A model generated the notes under the pieces. It was not told where the DNA came from and did no database searches. It was given only the letters and a program-made list of their open reading frames with translations. A stretch of DNA of 64,000 bases, taken from assembly GCA_027923505.1 (NCBI GenBank), contig BROI01000002.1:806001-870000 (forward strand). Reading direction: 5' to 3'. The translations under genes were made by a program, and so were the position numbers. Origin of the DNA: Mayamaea pseudoterrestris. Lineage: Eukaryota; Bacillariophyta; Bacillariophyceae; Sellaphorales; Sellaphoraceae. Below, piece by piece: positions 3,568 to 62,313 of the stretch (within the stretch, counting starts at the first letter, position 1; each line of letters starts with the position of its first letter).

Positions 3568-4718
3568 TTAGGCCATGGCGCCGTCGACCAAAGCCAACTT
3601 GCATGTTCCGGGGTTCATGCCAGCCTTGGTCATCTTGGTCATGAACAACTGTTCCCATGCGTGGTTGGCAGCGACTTCCGAAACATCGAAAGTAGCCGCA
3701 TCATCTGAGCCGCAGAACTTGCAACCCAACTTGGCAGAGAACTCAATGGCGTAGTCCGTGGTGACCGCATCGTCAGAGCCGCAAAACTTGCAACCAACAG
3801 TCTGCTCTTCTTGAACAATCCAAGCATCATCCGAACCGCAGAACTTGCAACCGTACTTGACAGACTTGGTTTCAGCATTGTCGCTAAATGACAAGCGAGG
3901 CGCCGCCAAAAATATCTCGCTCAACTGCTTGCCTTCCGTCGAGTGAATGGCACCAAAAGAGTCCGCGAGTAACTTGCTGGCAAGTGAAAGGACGCGAACA
4001 GGGGCACTGCTAAAGTCCATCTTGTCGCACTGAACATCAAGGGTAACGGCTTGCTGCTGCGTGTCAAGCTCGTCGTCAGACCCACAGAACTTGCAACCAA
4101 CCTCGATGGCGCGAGGCGCGATGTTAATGCGGCAGTCTTCCGCTTTGCTGAGGGACGCATAAGGTGACAGGGCGAGAATGGCGGTCAACTCTTCCTGCCA
4201 GAGCTCGAGCTTGTCATCGTCAAGAAGGGTAGTATCATCGTCCGAGCCGCAGAACTTGCACTTGAGGTTGTTGTCCGTTCCCTTGGCAACAAAGTAAAGA
4301 CTCTCCATGGCGCTGAGCTCATCGTCCGAGCCGCAGAATTTGCAGCCCGCGCGAAGACCCGTCTTGGGAGTGACCTCCTTTTGCTTGGGAGCAAACGAGA
4401 CGCCATTGGGAGTGGCAGTCACCTTGGCGAGCGACAAGCCATCAGCCTTCTTGTGAACGTTGTTGAACGTCACCTCCAAAGCCTTGGCGCCAAAGGCAAG
4501 TGCCTTGGGAGAGATGTGGTCGAAGTGAATGTTGGCGCAGGAGACCTGAATGTCAAGGTCGGTGACGGGCTGCCAAAATGGAAACGGAACTGTTTCTGTG
4601 AGTGTTTGTGACAAAGTAATTCGTTTCGCTCTCCCATGGCATGTATCTCGCTACTTACCGCATTGTTGGCGTTGGCAAAGGCGCCGAGGACCGAAAAGAG
4701 GGCGAATGAGAGCTTCAT
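3568..4718 (-). CDS. Secreted Cys-tag repeat protein, copy A
   Basis: Two exons, complement(3568..4569, 4659..4718), joined by an 89-base GT-AG intron, give 353 residues. Exon 1 encodes exactly a signal peptide (M-K-L-S-F-A-L-F-S-V-L-G-A-F-A-N-A-N-N-A). The mature protein carries six copies of C-K-F-C-G-S-D-D, five preceded by Gly and the second by Lys. They lie at 4321-4347, 4237-4260, 4072-4098, 3826-3852, 3769-3795 and 3700-3726. Four further Cys lie outside the tags. Between tags the sequence is well conserved with copy B and contains stretches such as L-T-A-I-L-A-L-S-P-Y-A-S-L-S-K-A-E-D-C. No known domain is recognised. C-x-x-C-G is the geometry of a zinc or rubredoxin knuckle, or of a redox CxxC; which one is inference. 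No membrane anchor is seen. Confidence 0.85.
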
Positions 4719-16323: not shown

Positions 16324-19300
16324 GTGCATGGCTGTTCGACCACCATGGGATTCACAATCAACGACGCAGAAAGCATGGTGAAAGAAAAGACAAAGACACG
16401 TCTTGACAAGGGAGGAAGTCGAGTGGAATTTATTGGATTTGGGGCTTTTGATGGACCGTCGTCTCCTTCAGCTACCGACGGAGGAGCTGCCGCTGCAAAT
16501 TCACCCTTTGCGTCCGCTCATCCAGTTTCATCCTGGACACCTGTCTACTACGGATCAGAAAGCGAAATCCGTCTGCTATTTCCTCGCATTAGTCAAAAGA
16601 AGGATGCCATTACCAAAGTTAAGGCGCTCCGAGAGCTCGCAACATATTTTTGCTCTGACGACATTCCAAAAAAGCTCCAAGCCGAAACGCTTGCCCATTT
16701 CGCCTGGCTATATCATCATAAGCTTGCATACGACGTGCAGCCTCCCGTTCGCGCCGAGTCGCTGAGTGTTTGGAAGGCGGCGGCCGATCGGATTCCAAAG
16801 GCGTGCAAAACATTCATGGAGTACTACCCCGAGCTATGTGGAATGCTTTACATTGCGCAGTGCGATTCCGACGCTCAAGTTGCCTTGCAGTATCGCAATA
16901 CAATCGAAACAGTGTACGAGCGTACTAGGAAAGATTGGCCATGGCAGGAAGGCTTGATGGAGTATGTGCACCGCATTCTATCGTACGGAAAACCATCGGT
17001 AATGCATCAAGCACTCTTTGCGAAAAAGAAGCAACCTGATGAAGCATCATCATCATCATTGACGCAACAACTCAATGAACAGCAACGAGACGAAATAGAA
17101 GAGCGCTTTGAGCGAATCGTTGGCATGACGCTGGCGGCACTGGACACGTATATTGGTCGGGATTCTTCCGAATTGACACTGAATGAACCGCAAACTATCT
17201 GGTTTCAGACGATGACCAGTTCTAAGCCAAGTCTTCGCTTTAAAACGTACCAGCTGCTCAATACTTGCATTTTAAAGAACTTGGAACAGCTCTTACCCAT
17301 CGACTTGGTCACGATGCTGGGCCGAAAAGTACTGCTGTCGGAACGAGAAGCTAGCAATATTCCAACCTTGCTCGAAACAATACTAGTGGTGCTCTCCAAG
17401 CAGCGGCAACATACAACTCTTTTTCAAAAACCATTGCAAAAGATGCTGTCAAAAGCATGCTACGGAGCGCGAGTCAGTGCTTGGGGTCCAACAATTTTGC
17501 CGCTACTCAGTTTCTTTGACAATAAACTGCCCTTGCTGCAAGCTTTGCAGGACGGAAGACCATTGGGAGCGGTTGACACGTGGCAGTTGCAGGAAGTCAT
17601 TATCGAGTGCAGCGCGTTTGCGCTACTCCAGCGGACAAGTAACAGTGAAAGCAACGGAAAAGTAGAAGATGCAAAAATGGTGTGCCAAGTGTGGCTCAAG
17701 GCGTTTTATGGGACAATGCTGACGCCGATATCCTTGTCCCCGGCGGCACAGGCTGCACATGGTGCAGTGATGCAGGAGCTGGCTAAATCGTTGCTTCGTT
17801 TTGAGGATGCTTGCATGCAGCAACGTGATTGCGACATTTCCTTGGTTCGTGATTGGTTTTGGGCGGAGGGAATCCGGATTGAAGCCAACACAGATCCCAT
17901 CGCCGTTGCCGCACTGTTAACAGCGGCTCGTACCTTGTCGAAGAATTCCAAAGAAAAATCGCTATTATTTCCTGCCATACATCCTTTCTTTTCAAGTACC
18001 TTGGAGAAGTACCGAGGGTCTTCAGGATCAGTGCCAAGCGATGGTGCGTATCGCATGTTCACGGAGGCGTTACAGTTTTTTGGCCCGTCGACAATACTCA
18101 ATAATAATACGCTGGAACGCTTTGTCATGAACGATCTTCTACGGTGGTTAGTCATCCATACAAGTGCATTGTCGACGCATGACCAGAACGATAGATTGGT
18201 CAAGTACGATTTTGGCCTGCTCGCGGTTTCCCTGGAAGATTTTGGCGCGGAGGCAACGAAGATCTGGCAATCAGTGCTGACCGAAATTGTGGCGGCCAAG
18301 TGCTCGCTTAGTTTGCTCGTGCCCGGACTTGAAAGTCTTTTAAAATCTAAAAACACTTTTGAATGGATTACATGTCCAATTTTCGATCAGTTTGCACAAG
18401 AAGTTGGGCTTGGTGTAATTGAGGTTGATGACACAAACGGTAGGAAAGACAAGATGAAAGGCGCCGCGAATTTAAGTTTTCTGCGCATGTGTTTGGGTAT
18501 ACCTTGTCATCACATTTTGGTGAGCGACAAAGTACTCGCAGTCTGGATTGATCGTGGTTGTCTATCTCTAAATGTCTCATCTGCCGACCAAGGCGTGGAT
18601 TCTACAATCCTACTCCAGGTCTTGGTTGAATTGGTTGCGAAGCACCCTGTGACTTTAAACGAAAAAGATGTTGATCGTATTATGTTGACCTCGTGGTATT
18701 ATGGGAGTGATTTTTTCGAAAATACGGCTCTGAGCGTCCTTAGTCAACGACCGTCAGCTACCCAACGATTCACAAAGAACGCATCAAATTATCTATCACA
18801 GGAGCTAGAAGCGTTGTGCACATGTTCTGAAAACGATGTACTCGCTTTAAAATGTGATCCGCGAAGGTGGTCAGAACATGCTTGGCAATTTGTTACTGCA
18901 TGCCGATTGTTATCTACAATGGACGCCGACACCATACCATCACTGGCCCTTTTCGGACTGGCCGACCTTCATCTTTGGAAGAAATACCCAGTTGTTCTAC
19001 ATGATTGCGCTGTTTTGTTTTTCGGTGGAATTACATCTTCAAAAGAAAAGATTGCACTTGTTGAACGATCTTGTGACGACGCGTCCATATTTCTTGCCAC
19101 TATCCTTGTGTCGCTGTCGCAGGCGAGCGCCGACGCGTACGAAGCCATGATTGTAAAGGCAGCCAAGGACCGCGCTTGCTCATTTCTTTCTTGTCTTGGA
19201 GGAGACGATTTGGAAGCAGAGTTTTTGATAAAACTGGCAGACGCAATTTTGCTTCGAGCGTCGAAAATTCGATTGCCAGAGGACGTCGACGCCTTGCGAA

Positions 19301-21519
19301 AAAATATAGCTTTGGCTGCCCAAGTGCTCGGCATTCTTTTCGAACCCGCTGGACATCTAACTGATGAGAAAATTCAGCCTGAAAGAGTCAGAGAAGGTAT
19401 GAAACTCTGGTACATAACCGATGTTGACCAACCTGACGTCCATCGATCAAGCGTCGAAGTCGTTAAAGTTCATTATGACGCGCAAGCGGGCTATTACTTC
19501 TCGATTAAGTTGGGCTCACAGGAACGTCAGACAGTTGCCGAACGACTGAGATACAAGCCGAGTGTGCCGTCAACTTTAAAGGACGATCACACTGGCATGT
19601 TGGAGAGCCTACGTAATTCCTTGCTGCAACTGATTCGATCTCTTTTCGATTTGAAAACGCCTGCACCGCTTGTTGGCGAACTGATCAATGTGCTCTGCAA
19701 TGTTGTGGGCCTAGACAACGCTCGTGGCATTGGGTCCGATCATTATGCACTCGTCTCTCTCACTGCGTCCATCGAAGCTGAAATACGTACCTCGCTTGAA
19801 CAGAAACGTGTGGATGGCCTTTCTTCTGCTTTATGGACCGTCGCTTGTGCGAGAGGTTTTGGTATTAATGTCCCATCAACCGGCTCTTTCAGCTGTACTC
19901 TTCCGTTTGACCCAAAACAGACGGCGACTGCTCTATCGCGATTTTATGATGGTTGCGGAACTGATGTTCCATTAGCTCTAGACGAGGCTGTTGTTGCGTG
20001 GTTTTCAACAGCGCTTCGCGCTGTCGCTAACGACGAGGACGTGTTGCCAATGATTTTGGATCTTCTATTCAGTCGAGCGTTAATTGTCGCTGAACAATGC
20101 AACATAAGTGGATTTTCTCATCAGGACGCCATCGTTACGAGCGCTTTACTAGCGGCTCTTGAATATGCCCACCGGACGAACACCAACCTTGACAATTCCG
20201 CAGCAATCGCGTTCCGAAAATGGATCTGTAATTTCGCCATGCACTGGGAGAGTGGAACTGTTGCGCCCACATGGATAGAGTATTCAGACTTCCCAGCCAT
20301 CGTGAAATTAGTTCAAGAAAGTGTATTTATCCAAGAATTCGTTCTTCGCTCATTTGAAAGCTCTACTTTAGAGCTACTTAGCGCTGCTTTATTTTGCCAA
20401 AGGAAGCGGCACTTTTCGTTCATGCTACTCCAACTGGCTGGCAGGAGTGGAAAGCCTTATTTTGAAGATATACCCTTTACTTCCGAAACATTAAGCCATT
20501 TACAAGAGTGGACCCATGGATTTGAACCTGAAGAGGCCGAGGTAGTTGAAGAGGACGTTGAGATAGTTTCGCGGTGGCTTCCAAGAAGGTTTATGATCGA
20601 AATTGAACATTGGGGAGCGGAAATCTTTGAGGATACGGACGACCAGACAACTGTTGCTCGTCTACTCATGTGGATTTGCGTGCTACTGCATGTCGACGTT
20701 TGTTCTTTGAAAGGATTCCGTTTTCGTCCGGCTTTTCTTTCGTACCTGAGCGAAAGTGGTGCCGTGTATGCTGCTTTGAATTTGGCTGTACTCAACGACG
20801 AAGCCATCAACAATGACAGCAAAATAGCTCCTGCGCTGCTCGATGTGGATGTGCTTTTACTCGATCCGACACTTTTCCAGGTCACGAAACTTGCTTCGCT
20901 AGTCTTGCTGCAGACAATTGATGTCCTTCCTTCCCTTTCTAGGAAATGGTATGATGAGAGCTGCCCAAAAGTGTATATATCGGACGTGCAGAGCTTTGTC
21001 GAGCGATACGTTGCACCCGAGCTGCTGCAAAGGGAGCTCAATCGTGTGCGTGCCAGAGACTCAGGTTTTGGAACAATGGAAGTGATTGCAAATTCATCAA
21101 CGAGAGAAGTGAAGGCTGTTTATACTCAAGACGACTTCACTCTTTCCGTTTTGATTACACTTCCCGCTGCTTTCCCATTTCGAAGTGCGGAAGTCGATTG
21201 CAGTAAAACTATTGGCGTACCTGCGGATCGTCTCAAGCGCTGGAGCCTACAGATACGAACGATGCTAAATAACCAAGGTGGGACGTTACAAGACGCTTTA
21301 AAGCTGTGGAAAGATAATGTTGACAAGGAGTTCGAAGGGGTGGAGCCTTGTCCCGTTTGTTATTCAGTGCTGCACGCTAAAACCCACAAGCTTCCCACAC
21401 TCAAGTGCAAGATTTGCTCCAACCGTTTTCATTTTGATTGTCTTAATCAATGGTTTCGAAGTTCCGGCAAGAATCAATGCGTATTGTGCCAGCAGCCATG
21501 GCAAGGGACGCATGTCTGA
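16324..21519 (+). CDS. LTN1: E3 ubiquitin ligase Listerin
   Basis: A 1731-residue single-exon protein, close to human Listerin (~1766). It ubiquitinates stalled nascent chains on 60S subunits in ribosome quality control. The N-terminus has the family pattern F-I-G-F-G-A-F, then L-F-P-R-I-S-Q-K-K-D-A-I-T-K-V-K-A-L-R-E-L. A long HEAT-like helical body follows. The C-terminus has an RWD-like segment and then a RING at ~1675-1724 (C-P-V-C, C-K-I-C, H-F-D-C, C-V-L-C). The final W after C-V-L-C-Q-Q-P is typical of Listerin RINGs. The start may instead be the ATG at 16345, seven codons in. The absence of introns over 5.2 kb is notable but normal for this compact genome. Confidence 0.93.
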   Translation: MHGCSTTMGFTINDAESMVKEKTKTRLDKGGSRVEFIGFGAFDGPSSPSATDGGAAAANSPFASAHPVSSWTPVYYGSESEIRLLFPRISQKKDAITKVKALRELATYFCSDDIPKKLQAETLAHFAWLYHHKLAYDVQPPVRAESLSVWKAAADRIPKACKTFMEYYPELCGMLYIAQCDSDAQVALQYRNTIETVYERTRKDWPWQEGLMEYVHRILSYGKPSVMHQALFAKKKQPDEASSSSLTQQLNEQQRDEIEERFERIVGMTLAALDTYIGRDSSELTLNEPQTIWFQTMTSSKPSLRFKTYQLLNTCILKNLEQLLPIDLVTMLGRKVLLSEREASNIPTLLETILVVLSKQRQHTTLFQKPLQKMLSKACYGARVSAWGPTILPLLSFFDNKLPLLQALQDGRPLGAVDTWQLQEVIIECSAFALLQRTSNSESNGKVEDAKMVCQVWLKAFYGTMLTPISLSPAAQAAHGAVMQELAKSLLRFEDACMQQRDCDISLVRDWFWAEGIRIEANTDPIAVAALLTAARTLSKNSKEKSLLFPAIHPFFSSTLEKYRGSSGSVPSDGAYRMFTEALQFFGPSTILNNNTLERFVMNDLLRWLVIHTSALSTHDQNDRLVKYDFGLLAVSLEDFGAEATKIWQSVLTEIVAAKCSLSLLVPGLESLLKSKNTFEWITCPIFDQFAQEVGLGVIEVDDTNGRKDKMKGAANLSFLRMCLGIPCHHILVSDKVLAVWIDRGCLSLNVSSADQGVDSTILLQVLVELVAKHPVTLNEKDVDRIMLTSWYYGSDFFENTALSVLSQRPSATQRFTKNASNYLSQELEALCTCSENDVLALKCDPRRWSEHAWQFVTACRLLSTMDADTIPSLALFGLADLHLWKKYPVVLHDCAVLFFGGITSSKEKIALVERSCDDASIFLATILVSLSQASADAYEAMIVKAAKDRACSFLSCLGGDDLEAEFLIKLADAILLRASKIRLPEDVDALRKNIALAAQVLGILFEPAGHLTDEKIQPERVREGMKLWYITDVDQPDVHRSSVEVVKVHYDAQAGYYFSIKLGSQERQTVAERLRYKPSVPSTLKDDHTGMLESLRNSLLQLIRSLFDLKTPAPLVGELINVLCNVVGLDNARGIGSDHYALVSLTASIEAEIRTSLEQKRVDGLSSALWTVACARGFGINVPSTGSFSCTLPFDPKQTATALSRFYDGCGTDVPLALDEAVVAWFSTALRAVANDEDVLPMILDLLFSRALIVAEQCNISGFSHQDAIVTSALLAALEYAHRTNTNLDNSAAIAFRKWICNFAMHWESGTVAPTWIEYSDFPAIVKLVQESVFIQEFVLRSFESSTLELLSAALFCQRKRHFSFMLLQLAGRSGKPYFEDIPFTSETLSHLQEWTHGFEPEEAEVVEEDVEIVSRWLPRRFMIEIEHWGAEIFEDTDDQTTVARLLMWICVLLHVDVCSLKGFRFRPAFLSYLSESGAVYAALNLAVLNDEAINNDSKIAPALLDVDVLLLDPTLFQVTKLASLVLLQTIDVLPSLSRKWYDESCPKVYISDVQSFVERYVAPELLQRELNRVRARDSGFGTMEVIANSSTREVKAVYTQDDFTLSVLITLPAAFPFRSAEVDCSKTIGVPADRLKRWSLQIRTMLNNQGGTLQDALKLWKDNVDKEFEGVEPCPVCYSVLHAKTHKLPTLKCKICSNRFHFDCLNQWFRSSGKNQCVLCQQPWQGTHV

Positions 21520-25620: not shown

Positions 25621-27459
25621 ATGGCCAACGCGACTAACCTCGACATGAGTACATCGCCTCGGCTGGAAACGGTTGCATTACTATCCCTCATGACGACGAC
25701 ACGAGATAATGGAACCTTTCACCGAGTCAGACCAGACGAGCAAGATCTAAACGACAGTTGCGTCGTAAATGACGACAGTAACGACGATGAGCCGCACTCT
25801 CCGGCTAGCGAGCAACTTGATTACTTGGACGACGAAGATTTGCACAAGACTACATTTTGGCAAACCTACGTTCATTTACTAAAGGGCTATATTGGTTGTG
25901 GCGTCTTGTCGCTACCATGGGCTGTCAGTCAGCTTGGAATCCCCTTTGGCATTGTTGCCATTTTCATCATGGCGATTTGGAGCAGCTACAATTGCTGGAC
26001 AGTCGTCAAACTAAAGCGGTATATTGAGCAATCGAACAGTAGTAACAGCAATACATCATCCTTTCAAGTCAACAATTCACCTCGACTCGAAGCTCCCAGC
26101 GACACCCGCAGTGAAGGAGCCGCCTCCAGCACCATCACCTATCCGGACGTTGGCGACTGGGCCTACGGATCATCCTTTCACAAGTACGTGACGGCTTGCA
26201 TCATCACGCAGCAACTAGCCATTTGCACCGTCTTTATGAGCTTCATTGGAGAAAACATTCATGCCGTCTTGCAGTTTGTTAACATCACCAGCGTGACGCA
26301 CTATCAAATACTGTCCGTGATTGTTCCACCCGTCATGCTACTCTGCTTTCTGCCGACGCTCAAGCACTTGGCGCCAGTCATGGTGATTGGAACTCTATTG
26401 ATCATGATTGGGTTTGCGTGTCTGGCGGGCGTGGGATGGCTTGAGTGGGAGGACCGGCCGCTCCACGCGCCGCCCATGCACTTTGGCAAGGCACCTCTTG
26501 CCTTGTGCGCCATTTTGTACTCGTTTGAAGGCATTTGCTTGGTCTTGCCGGTGGAAACGGCCATGCGAGACCCGCAGGAGTTTCAAAAGGCTTTTGTGTG
26601 GAGCATGTCGACCGTGGCTGCGATATTGGCAGTGGTGGCTGGCTTGTCAGTGGCGGCCTTTGGATATGTTTTGAACGGAAGCATTACAGCCTTTCTTCTG
26701 CAAGAGTACGGAGACGATCCATCGCATACGTTCTATCTCATGCTTGTCAACACAGCAGTCAGTCTATCTATTTTGTTAACGTATCCGCTGCAACTATTTC
26801 CAGCACTCGAACTAGTGGCGCCAATTATTGAAAGGTATCAGCCTCGATGGATTAAGGGTGAGATTGATGATGATTTGGACCTTGTCAGCTTTGAACCTCT
26901 ACCTCCCATTGATGAACATGATGTCATGTCCATTGCGTCGCTTCCATCTCATCACGACTACGCCAACAGTGGCGTCAAGGCTGACGATGACGACGAGAAT
27001 GACTCGATTACCGCGGCCACTGCAAATGGTGAATTGTCATCGAGGGATCGCTGGCGCATTTTTCGACGCCTACTGCCGCAAATGGTTGTGCCTGGAGATA
27101 GCTTGCTGCTCCGCGCTAGTCTTGTCATGCTGACGTATGCGATTGCATCCTTGGTTCCAAACGTTGAGAATTTAATCTCACTGGCCGGTGCGGTTGCTGG
27201 TTCATCGACAGCCTTGCTCATTCCACCTATACTAGAGCTGGCATGGATTGCACAGCTGCAGAAAGGTGACGCTAGTGTAAACCATTCGGCCGCAGAATTT
27301 GACGACTCGAGAAACTGGATCCTTGCGACTGGAAGAGCTGACAAGTTTTTCTTTGAAAAATTAAAGAGCTGGACACTGTTGATCCTGGGACTCATTTTTG
27401 CAGCGCTTGGAACATATGCATCTGTATCGGATATCATAAGACTGTATCGGGGCGCATAG
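25621..27459 (+). CDS. Amino acid transporter, AAAP/SLC36-38 type
   Basis: A 612-residue single-exon protein with about eleven membrane helices. The first helix block, L-L-K-G-Y-I-G-C-G-V-L-S-L-P-W-A, is the AAAP signature, a G-x-G unwound segment that binds substrate and proton or sodium. Y-P-D-V-G-D-W-A-Y-G before helix 3 and C-L-V-L-P-V-E-T-A-M-R near helix 7 also match. The N-terminal 75 residues are acidic and cytosolic. An acidic loop of ~70 residues (D-D-D-E-N-D) interrupts the C-terminal half. It likely moves neutral amino acids across plasma or vacuolar membrane; the substrate is not decided. The stop codon lies inside a 70-base tandem repeat. The promoter is shared with the divergent aldo-keto reductase (91-base gap). 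Confidence 0.85.
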   Translation: MANATNLDMSTSPRLETVALLSLMTTTRDNGTFHRVRPDEQDLNDSCVVNDDSNDDEPHSPASEQLDYLDDEDLHKTTFWQTYVHLLKGYIGCGVLSLPWAVSQLGIPFGIVAIFIMAIWSSYNCWTVVKLKRYIEQSNSSNSNTSSFQVNNSPRLEAPSDTRSEGAASSTITYPDVGDWAYGSSFHKYVTACIITQQLAICTVFMSFIGENIHAVLQFVNITSVTHYQILSVIVPPVMLLCFLPTLKHLAPVMVIGTLLIMIGFACLAGVGWLEWEDRPLHAPPMHFGKAPLALCAILYSFEGICLVLPVETAMRDPQEFQKAFVWSMSTVAAILAVVAGLSVAAFGYVLNGSITAFLLQEYGDDPSHTFYLMLVNTAVSLSILLTYPLQLFPALELVAPIIERYQPRWIKGEIDDDLDLVSFEPLPPIDEHDVMSIASLPSHHDYANSGVKADDDDENDSITAATANGELSSRDRWRIFRRLLPQMVVPGDSLLLRASLVMLTYAIASLVPNVENLISLAGAVAGSSTALLIPPILELAWIAQLQKGDASVNHSAAEFDDSRNWILATGRADKFFFEKLKSWTLLILGLIFAALGTYASVSDIIRLYRGA

Positions 27460-27590
27460 TGGACAGAATACTATAGTCGCACCATGAGTAGGATTTCGTC
27501 TATGAGCGTCCGCTTGACGTGGTGCATAGTGGTCAGGAGAATATAGCCGCACCATGAGTGGCATTTCGTCTATGAGCGTCCGCTTGACGT
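27451..27590. repeat. Two tandem 70-base units spanning the transporter stop codon
   Basis: Unit 1 is 27451-27520 and unit 2 is 27521-27590. Both are exactly 70 bases, and the last 35 bases of each differ at two positions. Unit 1 contains the TAG stop of the transporter, so the repeat doubles the end of the gene and the start of its 3' UTR. Confidence 0.85.
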
Positions 27591-28096: not shown

Positions 28097-29234
28097 ATGA
28101 AGTTCTCGTTCCCTCTATTCACCGTCTTCAACACCATCCTCGGATCCAGCGCCAACAGTGCTGTAAGTATGCAGACTGCAGATGATTACGTTATAAAAGA
28201 ATGAATTTCTGACATACTTCTTTCCTTTTCGCATTTTCCAGCCCGTCACGGACCTTGACATTCAAGTCACCTGTGCCAACCTTCGCTTCAACGAGATCTC
28301 TCCCAAGGCGCTTGCCTTTGGTGCCAAGGCTTTGGAAGTGACGTTCAACAACGTCCACAAGAAGGCCGATGGCTTGTCTCTCAACCAAGTCATGGCCACC
28401 CCCAACGATGTTTCCTTCGCTCGCAAGCAAAAGGTCGTCGGCAAGACGGGACTGCGCGCAGGCTGCAAGTTCTGTGGGTCGGACGACGAGTTCGGCGCCT
28501 TGGAGAGCCTCTCCTTTGCCGCCAAAGGCACGGACGACAACTTGAAGTGCAAGTTCTGCGGCTCCGACGACGATGTCACGCTCGACGATGCCAAGCTCAA
28601 GCTCTGGGAGGGCGAGTTGACCGCTATTCTCGCCTTGTCCCCGTATGCGTCCCTCAGCAAGGCCGAAGATTGCCGCATTGCCATTGCGCCGCTCGCCGCC
28701 GCGCCAGTCGAGGTTGGTTGCAAGTTCTGCGGATCCGATGACGACAAGGAGATGCAGCAAGCCGTCACCATTGATGTCCAATGCGACAAGATGGACTTCA
28801 GCAGTGCTCCCGTCCGCGTCCTCTCAGTTGCTAGCAAGCTTCTTTCCGAGTCGTTTGACGCAATTCATTCGGCCGAAGGCTCCAAGCTGACCGACATTTC
28901 CTTGGCGGCTCCGCGCTTGTCTTTCAGTGAAGACAAGTCGCTCAAGGCTGGATGCAAGTTTTGCGGCTCGGATGATGCTTGGATCGTTCAAGAGGAGCAA
29001 GCGACCAGTGGCTGCAAGTTTTGCGGATCGGACGATGCCGTCACAAGCAATTTCGACATTGAATTTTCAGCCAAGTTGGGTTGCAAGTTTTGCGGATCCG
29101 ATGATGCCGTCTTTGCTGTTTCGGAAGTTGCCATTAACAAGGCGTGGGAGCAGTTGTTCATGGCCAAAATGATCAAAGAAGGCATGAACCCTGGAACATG
29201 CAAGTTGGTCTTGACGGACAGCGCCACCGCGTAA
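28097..29234 (+). CDS. Secreted Cys-tag repeat protein, copy B
   Basis: Two exons, join(28097..28162, 28242..29234), with a 79-base intron, give 352 residues. Exon 1 again encodes only the signal peptide (M-K-F-S-F-P-L-F-T-V-F-N-T-I-L-G). The six C-K-F-C-G-S-D-D tags sit at residues about 97-104, 125-132, 182-189, 260-267, 280-287 and 303-310. Codons differ between tags (Gly GGC/GGT/GGA, Phe TTC/TTT, Ser TCG/TCC, Asp GAC/GAT), so the peptide, not the DNA, is held constant. Stretches between tags match copy A closely (A-L-A-F-G-A-K-A-L-E-V-T-F-N-N-V, C-D-K-M-D-F-S-S-A-P-V-R-V-L-S). The C-terminus G-M-N-P-G-T-C-K-L is shared. It is probably extracellular or vesicular; metal binding or thiol chemistry is inferred from the CxxC knuckles only. 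Confidence 0.88.
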
Positions 29235-34343: not shown

Positions 34344-35891
34344 ATGTCCGCTGAAGCAAAGCTTGCCAAAGTTCAAAAGAAAATTCGCCAAGGTTTAATC
34401 AAGCACGGTACAAAGGTTGAAGTTAACGATGCTGATCCATGTGGCGACGGGGATCAGTCAATCATCGACACTGGCGGCTTTGCTCGTCAGCAATTTTATC
34501 GAAACTTGTACGGGGAAGCAGGTGACATTAATTATCTCGTTGAGGTCGGCCTGGCTCCATTGTCATCATTTGCCAGACACTGCATAGCAGGCACTGTGAC
34601 CGCAATGCGAAGAATGCTTCAAGAAGCCGATACGGATCCAACAAAGCCCTCGGAAGCATTAGTTCAATTGTTGGAAAAGCGCGAAACGACCCAGCGCTTG
34701 TCACCATTGTTGATGACTGTCGGCATAGGCAAGAATGTTCAGCTTTCGGCAGACTCTTTGGTGCCGCAGCATCTCAAGGCGGTGGAACTCTTGCTCGAGT
34801 ATGGAGCCCGCCCTGATGCCCGAGACGTTTGCGGAAAGACTGTCTGTCACTACGGGTTGGGAGCTTTTGCGACGGAAATGACTATGAAGGCTTGCGAATA
34901 TTGCATTGCAGCTCACCAGTCGAGTCATTTGTTTGGAAAGGAAGTGGAACTACACTCGCTTAGTACCACGGAACTGAATGGATTGCGAGGCATTTGTCGC
35001 GGCTACATTGTATCGACTGGCCGGCGAATGGTTCATTTACATGATAGGAACGAGACAAAGGCGCTAAAGCCAATGAATTTGAAGCTTGTCAACGGAGACT
35101 CAAACACTGTTACTGTCAACTTGTGCGATATTCAAGATCGACTGAAAGGCGTAGCATTGATTGAAGTGTTAATGGCAAATCGACTTGACGTTGCAAAAGT
35201 CTTATTGGACCAGCATAACGCTAGCATTGACATAGTTAATGTTGAAGGCCTCTCACCCAAAATAATGGCCGCCAAGGCGGGTGCATTGTCCCAAGTCGGC
35301 GGCATGATAATGAAGAGTGCCATGCGTAAGAGTCGAGCAGAGCACGTGACTCGCCAGAAAACATGCGCCAACTGCGGAAGAGTGGACGACTCGCTGACGA
35401 AATGCGGAAGGTGCCTCACCGTATGTTACTGCTCGCGAAACTGTCAGGTTGCACATTGGAAAGCGGGACATAAGGGGGATTGCGTGCCTGTTTTGGACGA
35501 GAAACAATTCGTTAGTTTGAAAAAGCCTCGTGCCGGAGGCATGTCCGTGGCGACATTCAGTGTGGGTACTGGGTCACTTGGCGCTGCTTCGAGACAGCAG
35601 CCAACTAGAACTATGTCAGACTCTTTTCGAAAACCCAGCAATGTGGCTTACGGTGAACAATTCTACATAAAGATTCAGGCCGGTGGAGTGCTAACGCCCC
35701 TGCTGTTATACGATCAGTCACGCGAGTTTCAAACGACTGTCAACCCATCGGACCCAGCCTTTGACCAACTACGAGCTAAAGTTGTCGCCGATCCTGCTGC
35801 CGATGGACGGAAAACCTATTTGAAGTGCAGCTTTGACAACCAAGATAGCTGCTCTATTTTTCTTAATACTCGGTCAGTGAAATTATGGTAG
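34344..35891 (+). CDS. Ankyrin-like/MYND zinc-finger protein, copy 1
   Basis: A 515-residue single-exon protein. The N-terminal half has ankyrin-like helices, for example V-E-L-L-L-E-Y-G-A-R-P-D-A-R-D-V-C-G-K-T at ~145-165 and D-V-A-K-V-L-L-D-Q-H-N-A-S-I-D-I near 280-295. A MYND zinc finger lies at ~341-378 (C-x2-C, C-x2-C, C-Y-C-S-R-N-C, H-x3-H-x3-C), a protein-protein interaction module. The C-terminal ~80 residues (F-Y-I-K-I-Q-A-G-G to the end) are conserved in copy 2 and unassigned. Ankyrin/MYND proteins are an expanded family in diatoms with no assigned role. Its paralogue lies 1.6 kb downstream on the same strand. Confidence 0.78.
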   Translation: MSAEAKLAKVQKKIRQGLIKHGTKVEVNDADPCGDGDQSIIDTGGFARQQFYRNLYGEAGDINYLVEVGLAPLSSFARHCIAGTVTAMRRMLQEADTDPTKPSEALVQLLEKRETTQRLSPLLMTVGIGKNVQLSADSLVPQHLKAVELLLEYGARPDARDVCGKTVCHYGLGAFATEMTMKACEYCIAAHQSSHLFGKEVELHSLSTTELNGLRGICRGYIVSTGRRMVHLHDRNETKALKPMNLKLVNGDSNTVTVNLCDIQDRLKGVALIEVLMANRLDVAKVLLDQHNASIDIVNVEGLSPKIMAAKAGALSQVGGMIMKSAMRKSRAEHVTRQKTCANCGRVDDSLTKCGRCLTVCYCSRNCQVAHWKAGHKGDCVPVLDEKQFVSLKKPRAGGMSVATFSVGTGSLGAASRQQPTRTMSDSFRKPSNVAYGEQFYIKIQAGGVLTPLLLYDQSREFQTTVNPSDPAFDQLRAKVVADPAADGRKTYLKCSFDNQDSCSIFLNTRSVKLW

Positions 35892-37481: not shown

Positions 37482-39047
37482 ATGTCACTCGCTGAACTGT
37501 CCAGAATCCGCGCCAAGATTCGCCAAGACTTGATCAACAATGGCACAGACGTGAATTTAAACGACGTTGATTTATACGGCGACGGCGACCAGTCGCTGCT
37601 TCCAGCGGGCGACAAGGTGCGGCAGCAAGTCTACCGAGACTTGTACGCCAGCGGCGGAGACGTTCCGTACATGATGGAGCAGCTGCAAATGACCGAGTTT
37701 TCGCACTTTGCCCAGTGCTGCATCTCCGGTCACGTGGAGGGTGTGCGCGAGTGTATTGAAAACGCCGACACTGACGCAGCGCGTCCGTCGCAAGCGTTGG
37801 TGCAGTTGCTGGAGAAGCGTGAAACGACGCAGCGCTTGTCACCGTTACTCATGATACTCAGTATTGGGAGAAGCTTCTTTGGCTTGCAGGGGAATAGGAG
37901 TTTGGAAGCAAAGCAGCTGGAAGTAGTCAAGCTTTTGCTCAAGTATGGCGCTAGACCTGACGCACGAGATGTTTGCGGCAAGACGGTCTGCCACTATGGC
38001 ATGGGAGCCATTGTCACTGGCATGGCTCTCAAGGGAGCAGGATTTTGCGTTGAAGCGCACAAGTCGAGTCATTTGTTTGGAAGGGAGGTTGAGTTACATT
38101 CCCTGAAGAATGAGGAGCTCAATGGAGTGCGAGGGGTGTGCCGAGGTTATGTGGTGGACACGGGTCGAAGGGCCGTATACCTGTTGGAAAAGAAGGAGAC
38201 TGTCGGGATTAAACCAATCCACTTGAAGCTGGCTGGTCCACAATCTACTACCGACACTGATCGGCCGAAATTAGTTGACATGCAGGATCGAATTGGTGGT
38301 GTTCCTTTGCTGGAAACATACATGGGCGGCCAGGCTGATGTGGCCGACATTTTGCTTGAAGAGCACCATGCCAGCATTGACATTGCAGACGTTGATGGGT
38401 TCTCCCCAAGGTCCATGGCCATGCAGAGAGGTGCTGGCTTCATGACGCCAGTTGCCAAGCTCATCAACAAGCATGCTGTCAAGCGAGATCGGGCGGAGAA
38501 AAAGAAGAATGAAGCGACGTGCTCAAACTGTTCCAAGACAGGCACATCATTGTCGGTTTGTTCGAAGTGTCAATCTACGCAGTATTGCTGCAAGGAATGC
38601 CATGTGACGCATTGGAGAAGTGGAGGGCACAAGGAGGAATGTCCAAAACTCAGCCGAGAGAAACAAGAAATAGTTGTACTGGAGAGGCCTCCACCTGACG
38701 TAAAGAATACGTTTCAGTCAACGTTCCAATTGGGCGGTGGAAAATTTACCTCGCAGCCAGTCGCTCATGCGTCTGCCACGTTTCACAAACCAAGCCATGT
38801 GGCCGTCGGTGAGCAGTTTTACATCAAGATTCAAGCCGAGGGCCCCACAGCGCCCTTGCTCATTTACGACAAGTCGCGGGAGTTTCGAACCTCGGTTGAG
38901 CCAAGCACTCCGGGGTTTGACGCATTGCGCAACAAAGTTAAGAGCGACCCAACTTCGAATGGAAGGAAGACTTACATGAAGTGTAGCTTTGATGAACAAG
39001 GCCGATGCACGATCTATCTTGGGACGAGATCGGCAAAGACTTGGTAA
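37482..39047 (+). CDS. Ankyrin-like/MYND zinc-finger protein, copy 2
   Basis: A 521-residue single-exon protein, collinear with copy 1 over its whole length. Blocks such as L-V-Q-L-L-E-K-R-E-T-T-Q-R-L-S-P-L-L-M and Y-G-A-R-P-D-A-R-D-V-C-G-K-T-V are identical. The MYND finger lies at ~347-386 (C-S-N-C, C-S-K-C, Y-C-C-K-E-C, H-x4-H-x3-C) with one extra Gly before the last His. The C-terminal domain F-Y-I-K-I-Q-A-E-G onward is conserved. The copies differ most in residues ~385-425, just after the finger. A local duplication is likely, with the antenna gene inserted between the copies or left there from a larger duplicated block. Confidence 0.78.
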   Translation: MSLAELSRIRAKIRQDLINNGTDVNLNDVDLYGDGDQSLLPAGDKVRQQVYRDLYASGGDVPYMMEQLQMTEFSHFAQCCISGHVEGVRECIENADTDAARPSQALVQLLEKRETTQRLSPLLMILSIGRSFFGLQGNRSLEAKQLEVVKLLLKYGARPDARDVCGKTVCHYGMGAIVTGMALKGAGFCVEAHKSSHLFGREVELHSLKNEELNGVRGVCRGYVVDTGRRAVYLLEKKETVGIKPIHLKLAGPQSTTDTDRPKLVDMQDRIGGVPLLETYMGGQADVADILLEEHHASIDIADVDGFSPRSMAMQRGAGFMTPVAKLINKHAVKRDRAEKKKNEATCSNCSKTGTSLSVCSKCQSTQYCCKECHVTHWRSGGHKEECPKLSREKQEIVVLERPPPDVKNTFQSTFQLGGGKFTSQPVAHASATFHKPSHVAVGEQFYIKIQAEGPTAPLLIYDKSREFRTSVEPSTPGFDALRNKVKSDPTSNGRKTYMKCSFDEQGRCTIYLGTRSAKTW

Positions 39048-61693: not shown

Positions 61694-61758
61694 AGCATTA
61701 CTCATTGTCAATAAATACTTATCGCGCCTGTTGTTGATATTGATACTTACCCGATCAT
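61694..61758. repeat. Dispersed 65-base repeat, copy 1
   Basis: It begins AGCATTACTCATTGTCAATA and ends TACTTACCCGATCAT. It recurs with a 3-base deletion and few changes at 62252-62313, directly after a different open stretch. Confidence 0.75.
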
Positions 61759-62251: not shown

Positions 62252-62313
62252 AGCATTACTCACTGTCAATAAATAATCGCACCTGTCGTTGATATTAATA
62301 CTTACCCGATCAT
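62252..62313. repeat. Dispersed 65-base repeat, copy 2
   Basis: It begins AGCATTACTCACTGTCAATA and ends TACTTACCCGATCAT. It has the same orientation as copy 1, about 560 bases apart. Confidence 0.75.

Follow-up and report, generated by a model that had tools for sequence, protein, structure and literature searches.

Six identical CKFCGSDD tags in each of two paralogous, internally duplicated and probably secreted diatom proteins

In the window, that is the whole 64-kb stretch of DNA analysed, lie two paralogous genes, at 28097-29234 (+) and 3568-4718 (-), both with a single inferred intron. For both copies the ends of the gene models fall at the coordinates given by an earlier, sequence-only reading of this DNA. 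The two models share a common layout: a short hydrophobic-looking first exon, one phase-0 intron with a GTAAGT donor, and one long exon. The introns of both copies are putative and are proposed on splice signals and on the comparison of the two genes. The features are as follows.

28097-28162, + strand: copy 2, exon 1, with start codon and probable signal peptide MKFSFPLFTVFNTILGSSANSA (signal peptide by eye)
28163-28241, + strand: copy 2, putative intron, GTAAGT..CAG, phase 0, proposed from the sequence and from copy 1
28242-29234, + strand: copy 2, exon 2 including the stop codon; mature protein of 330 residues
4659-4718, - strand: copy 1, exon 1, with start codon and probable signal peptide MKLSFALFSVLGAFANANNA (signal peptide by eye)
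4570-4658, - strand: copy 1, putative intron, GTAAGT..CAG, phase 0
3568-4569, - strand: copy 1, exon 2 including the stop codon; mature protein of 333 residues, with six tags

The mature proteins of copies 1 and 2 are 82% identical. The long DNA self-match (3591-4589 against 28222-29212, 79.6% identical) stops at the gene, so the pair looks like the product of an old duplication of one gene, whose copies now lie 24 kb apart and face opposite ways. A profile of the halves of the protein, tags included, found no third family member in the 64-kb window.

Other features of the window include two adjoining paralogous genes at 34344-35891 and 37482-39047 (+), which have ankyrin and MYND-finger matches and DNA pieces that are 75-83% identical. 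A 73-base direct repeat (27448-27520 and 27518-27590, adjacent copies 88% identical) is found where the amino-acid transporter ORF (25621-27459) ends, and another of about 65 bases (61694-61758 and 62252-62313, 89% identical) in a region poor in long ORFs. The long ORF at 16324-21519 (+), with LTN1-type HEAT, UBC-like and RING matches, probably encodes a listerin-like ligase.

Six-frame translation places the octapeptide CKFCGSDD 12 times in the window, six times at each of the two loci and nowhere else, in agreement with the earlier description of exactly six tags per copy with all eight residues the same in 12 of 12. This repetition exceeds chance: when the copy 1 protein was shuffled 2000 times, no peptide of more than seven residues occurred twice, and one of seven did so in a single shuffle. 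Cutting the mature protein at tag 3 defines two halves, A and B, arranged with the tags as follows.

28242-28718, + strand: copy 2, half A
28743-29231, + strand: copy 2, half B
4096-4569, - strand: copy 1, half A (the modelled half)
3571-4071, - strand: copy 1, half B
28464-28487, + strand: copy 2, tag 1, predicted in the beta2-beta3 connection of half A
28548-28571, + strand: copy 2, tag 2, predicted in the beta3-alpha2 connection of half A
28719-28742, + strand: copy 2, tag 3, between the halves
28953-28976, + strand: copy 2, tag 4, placed by MAFFT in a half B insertion that half A lacks
29013-29036, + strand: copy 2, tag 5, paired with tag 1 by MAFFT
29082-29105, + strand: copy 2, tag 6, paired with tag 2 by MAFFT
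From 4344, 4260, 4095, 3849, 3792 and 3723, - strand: copy 1, tags 1 to 6, 24 bases each, running downstream

Each protein is an internal duplication, and the first parts of the halves are homologous. Over their first 70 tag-free residues, A and B align with a higher score than all 5000 shuffles in copy 1 and than 4999 of 5000 in copy 2; when the tags are deleted and the whole halves compared, the figures are 4995 and 4998 of 5000, respectively. With the tags masked, BLASTP of the halves gives E values of 4e-4 and 7e-4 in a search of two sequences without composition correction, and hhalign gives a weak local match (E 0.018, probability 2.6%, 55 columns). For the later parts of the halves, homology is suggested mostly by alignments that include the tags. 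In the aligned halves 16 of 16 tag residues are identical, compared with 23-28 of 120-124 residues (19-23%) outside the tags. In the MAFFT alignment tags 1 and 2 stand opposite tags 5 and 6, respectively, tag 4 falls in the half B insertion and tag 3 in the linker. The partner of tag 1 differs by method (tag 5 with MAFFT and BLASTP, tag 4 with hhalign), and the correspondence is partly imposed because the alignment of the halves contains the tags.

The constraint on the tags was assessed from replacement and synonymous changes between copy 1 and copy 2, counted by the Nei-Gojobori method over 48 tag codons and 278 other aligned mature codons. Within the tags there are no replacements at 118 nonsynonymous sites and 17 changes at 26 synonymous sites; outside them the mature protein has 81.8 replacements at 642.2 nonsynonymous sites and 95.2 changes at 191.8 synonymous sites. 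The tags differ from the remainder in replacement changes (Fisher p 9e-7), and the dN/dS comparison suggested by the sequence-only reading thus identifies them as the most constrained part (0 of 118 against 81.8 of 642.2). The scaffold outside the tags is itself under purifying selection (dN 0.14, dS 0.81) and is therefore not mere filler. The same reading took the flanks to have drifted, which is only partly right, given this selection and the 82% identity of the mature proteins noted above. Its statement that third codon positions vary widely holds for F, the second C, G, S and both D residues, but not for the first cysteine (TGC in 12 of 12) or the lysine (AAG in 11 of 12), two codons whose uniformity fits usage outside the tags (TGC 7 of 8, AAG 42 of 46).

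Within a gene, tags differ on average at 3.33 of their eight codons, compared with 3.34 when synonymous codons are drawn at random according to their use elsewhere in the genes. Because the codons differ at this random level, tag identity is held at the protein level, and the tags are mostly old, with no recent homogenisation. Neither recent gene conversion nor a cause acting on DNA or RNA was retained as an explanation of tag identity, since synonymous sites are at the random level; no Rfam match reached the gathering score. Some tags may have been copied locally at a later date than others, because a 41-base stretch around tag 4 and around tag 6 of copy 1 is 88% identical. Tags 1 and 2 of copy 1 differ by a single base. 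As for the origin of the tags, the serine codon is TCN in 12 of 12 tags compared with 33 of 52 outside (Fisher p 0.013, the 12 tags not being independent). TCN and AGY serine codons are at least two changes apart, so this uniformity hints at old copies of one ancestral tag rather than at independent origins. Codon for codon, tags at the same position in the two genes are not clearly nearer to each other than randomly paired tags are (104 of 720 permutations do equally well).

Among the 22 Pfam matches listed at E up to 10, every best stretch overlaps a tag, and most of the matches are to metal-finger families. Lar (PF14354) reaches 30.8 bits in copy 1 against a cut-off of 28.6; of Lar and TFIIB (PF08271) it is the sole family to pass, and in copy 1 only. 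NCBIfam and PHROGs returned weak matches only, the best being the Lar-like phrog_599 (E 1.8e-4). Among PDB sequences there was no match for copy 1 and five for the profile of the halves, at E 0.24-0.82. As a control, the spacers of the tag 4-6 segments were shuffled eight times with the tags kept, and the products were compared with Pfam at E up to 0.1: 8 of 8 matched both Lar and TFIIB. The Lar scores of the real segments (19.7 and 18.1) fall within the shuffle range, as does the TFIIB score of the copy 2 segment (23.6), whereas that of the copy 1 segment (25.9) exceeds all eight shuffles (highest 24.8). Since spacer shuffles match as well, the zinc-family matches are due mainly to the tag and are not independent evidence, and membership of the Lar or TFIIB zinc ribbons was not accepted. 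Six tag-free stretches submitted to Pfam gave no match in five cases and DUF3644 at E 0.13 in one. Neither the HMA family nor any thioredoxin-type or other redox family occurs among the Pfam matches up to E 10.

What these matches indicate is mainly that the tag looks like a metal knuckle. The sequence-only reading had assigned it to the CxxCG type, a likeness supported by the multi-cysteine contexts in which the octamer occurs elsewhere. A degenerate DNA scan of prokaryote genomes returned 18 stretches, five of which have the octamer in an open frame, once each. Three of these are Streptomyces PhnJ (L003 and L014 by Pfam; L004 judged by its sequence); another, L011, is an HNH protein with a Lar-like stretch and a further CxxC; the last, L017, is a 52-residue frame with no Pfam match in the 36 residues searched. 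In IMG/VR, the tag scan found one stretch that fits the DNA pattern but does not encode the octamer, and a search for pairs of CKFCG found one contig, with CKFCGKQIDDNSRFCKFCGKK, an ordinary-looking zinc ribbon. At L020 (minus strand, 570-625), in a phage-like contig, a 147-residue open frame has CKFCG twice and a hydrophobic segment; by eye it looks like a zinc ribbon with a membrane anchor. The Lar and TFIIB knuckles share the CxxCGS pattern with the diatom tags, and differ in that here six identical knuckles stand on a probably secreted scaffold. The exact octamer is common to the C-terminal cysteine site of Streptomyces PhnJ (PF06007); there, however, it occurs once per protein and is followed by a CSDTEWC segment, and this C-P lyase subunit is unrelated to the scaffold. 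The four cysteines of PhnJ are described as a putative Fe4S4 site (PMC9947105).

No relatives of the scaffold were found in IMG/VR or in GTDB genomes, both searches being seeded by exact 7-residue stretches, nor in plasmids, nor in phages at E up to 1. At E up to 10, copy 2 retrieved 12 Pseudomonas phage records, of which five, listed at E 1 or worse over 22% of the query, are annotated as HNH endonuclease. No other protein with six tags was present in the viral, phage, plasmid and prokaryote collections searched. The sequence-only reading knew of no described family, and indeed searches of Pfam, NCBIfam, PHROGs and PDB sequences found none that matches the whole combination of six tags and a duplicated domain. 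In the literature, no work on CKFCGSDD, GCKFCGS or looser spellings of the tag was found, and articles on diatoms with CxxC, zinc ribbon or secretome included none that was relevant by title and the start of the abstract. The parts are of known kinds (an alpha-beta domain and a CxxCG knuckle), and their combination is new within the family databases and the viral, phage, plasmid and prokaryote collections covered.

For the full-length protein, AlphaFold2 run on two sequences gave a mean pLDDT of 31, which is not usable. Half A of copy 1 was modelled from an alignment of four halves; the best model has a mean pLDDT of 62.6 and a pTM of 0.62, compared with 39.0-50.4 for the other four, and contains the elements E4-12, H21-43, E47-52, E88-97, H118-133, H138-141 and E144-152. 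With moderate confidence, each half is predicted to be beta-alpha-beta-beta-alpha-beta with the tags in loops. The model puts tag 1 (residues 76-83) into the beta2-beta3 connection and tag 2 (residues 104-111) into the beta3-alpha2 connection, both at pLDDT below 50, with a 10-residue strand between them. In the ferredoxin-like fold these two connections are at opposite ends of the sheet, so that the tags would gather at two poles. As tags 1 and 2 flank the 10-residue strand (within low-confidence loops), it is doubtful that neighbouring tags 1+2 and 5+6 would share one metal site. The non-tag cysteines 11/146 and 181/323 (mature copy 1) are in or adjoining the first and last strands of each half, and disulfides between them probably staple each domain.

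Foldseek with the half A model gave no match at E 0.001 or better (best PDB match 0.016, an amidase; best BFVD match 0.0052). The 50 weak PDB matches listed include variants of ribosomal protein S6 and the ferredoxin-like dimer CC_2267, beside unrelated-looking proteins. The likeness to these ferredoxin-like domains consists in the order of secondary structure; they differ in the low TM-scores, E values worse than 0.001, lack of sequence relation, and the position of the tags here in the beta2-beta3 and beta3-alpha2 connections. HMA domains such as the metallochaperone Atx1 are also beta-alpha-beta-beta-alpha-beta and use CxxC metal ligands, with a single CxxC in the beta1-alpha1 loop. Fold order and CxxC are thus alike; here, however, the beta1-alpha1 region is without CxxC (VSCANIHF in copy 1, VTCANLRF in copy 2). 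The sequence-only reading did not recognise that the protein is internally duplicated, nor its likely fold, nor the hint that the tags descend from one ancestor.

The protein is probably secreted, as the N-termini of both copies are hydrophobic and signal-peptide-like by eye. The highest 19-residue hydropathy at the N-termini (1.02 and 0.95) is not above that in the rest of the protein (1.05 and 1.40), where the same measure shows no clear membrane span.

The architecture proposed, two tandem homologous domains displaying six tags, is likely to be correct. As to function, the explanation tentatively placed first is that the tags act as a multivalent metal binder or cross-linker through paired identical tags, in Cys2+Cys2 sites. 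In a soluble, probably secreted protein, each of the two tandem homologous domains would have the predicted beta-alpha-beta-beta-alpha-beta order, and six copies of one ancestral tag would be shown in loops and in the inter-domain linker. The tags would be the working surface, each giving a CxxC thiolate pair; a second CxxC from an identical tag on another loop, the other domain or another molecule would create a Cys2+Cys2 metal site. The outcome would be a multivalent extracellular metal binder or a metal-dependent cross-linker. The presence of the octamer or a CKFCG pair in multi-cysteine contexts elsewhere (PhnJ, the HNH protein, the contig with CKFCGKQIDDNSRFCKFCGKK) argues for metal pairing. 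By itself, a metal knuckle would keep only C, C and G constant. The equal invariance of K, F, S, D and D would follow from homotypic pairing, which constrains all residues; their fixation in different loops and across an old duplication suggests that either one partner reads the tag or the tags read each other. Metal pairing is weakened by the frequent oxidation of CxxC in the secretory pathway, and by the seeming placement of tags 1 and 2 at opposite strand ends, where close partners are not obvious. A more specific form, which seems unlikely, is a homotypic metal fastener in which any tag pairs with any other across loops, domains, molecules and both paralogues: two CxxC would share one metal, K2 would meet D7/D8 of the other tag, and the six tags would build a metal-dependent extracellular network. 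All eight residues would then be locked, because every tag must fit every other.

A close rival, ranked second and quite possible, is that each tag forms a disulfide-loop epitope: an oxidised CKFC ring with GSDD would be the repeated site that one partner, or one modifying enzyme, recognises, and six copies would provide avidity. Fixation of all eight residues, not C and G alone, is as expected if one partner reads each loop, and the predicted position of tags in loops between strands is favourable too, as is their resemblance to copies of one ancestor (serine TCN in 12 of 12). However, the octamer is found elsewhere in multi-cysteine, cytosolic proteins, and we know of no partner for the tag.

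It is unlikely that neighbouring tags (1+2, 4+5 or 5+6) are ordinary zinc ribbons inserted in the domain. The spacings of tags 1-2, 4-5 and 5-6 are 11-20 residues, which is the range of ribbons, and both the Lar score of copy 1 (30.8 against 28.6) and the TFIIB score of its segment (25.9, shuffles up to 24.8) are as ribbons would give. Yet 8 of 8 shuffles match both families, the TFIIB score of copy 2 (23.6) and both Lar scores lie inside the shuffle range, and in the model a 10-residue strand separates tag 1 from tag 2. More unlikely still, the tags could be ordinary constrained turns, identical here through the relatedness of two paralogues and varying at K, F, G and S in other species. The invariance does rest on two paralogues from one genome, the sole sample, and looser C-x-[LF]-C-x-x-D-D tags occur in stramenopile proteins. 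This explanation would nevertheless have to account for six tags within one protein with synonymous sites saturated, and for their identity across halves that are 19-23% identical elsewhere.

A redox role, in which CxxC tags cycle between dithiol and disulfide in a secreted reductant or thiol buffer, is very improbable: CxxC is the usual redox pair, but the Pfam matches include no redox family and there is no reason for six identical sites with GSDD. The least probable reading, in which tags are excised as small cyclic peptides, shares with fungal KEX2-processed repeat proteins (PMC6339444) identical peptide repeats in a (here probably) secreted protein, and was set aside because processing sites were not found at the tags: dibasic pairs occur only at residue 40 (both copies) and residue 61 (copy 2), within six residues of 0 of 12 tags, and, unlike in those proteins, the stretches between tags show conservation and have a predicted fold.

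If the tags are the working part, as metal pairing proposes, one short peptide has come to occupy about four non-equivalent positions in a duplicated domain and has remained letter-perfect there, while around it the domain diverged until only about 20% identity was left. Nature would then offer an unusual example of a functional peptide that is portable on a scaffold. The tag is short enough for testing alone and might be used as a connector under metal or redox control. In the eukaryote itself, it would point to an undescribed extracellular metal or matrix protein.
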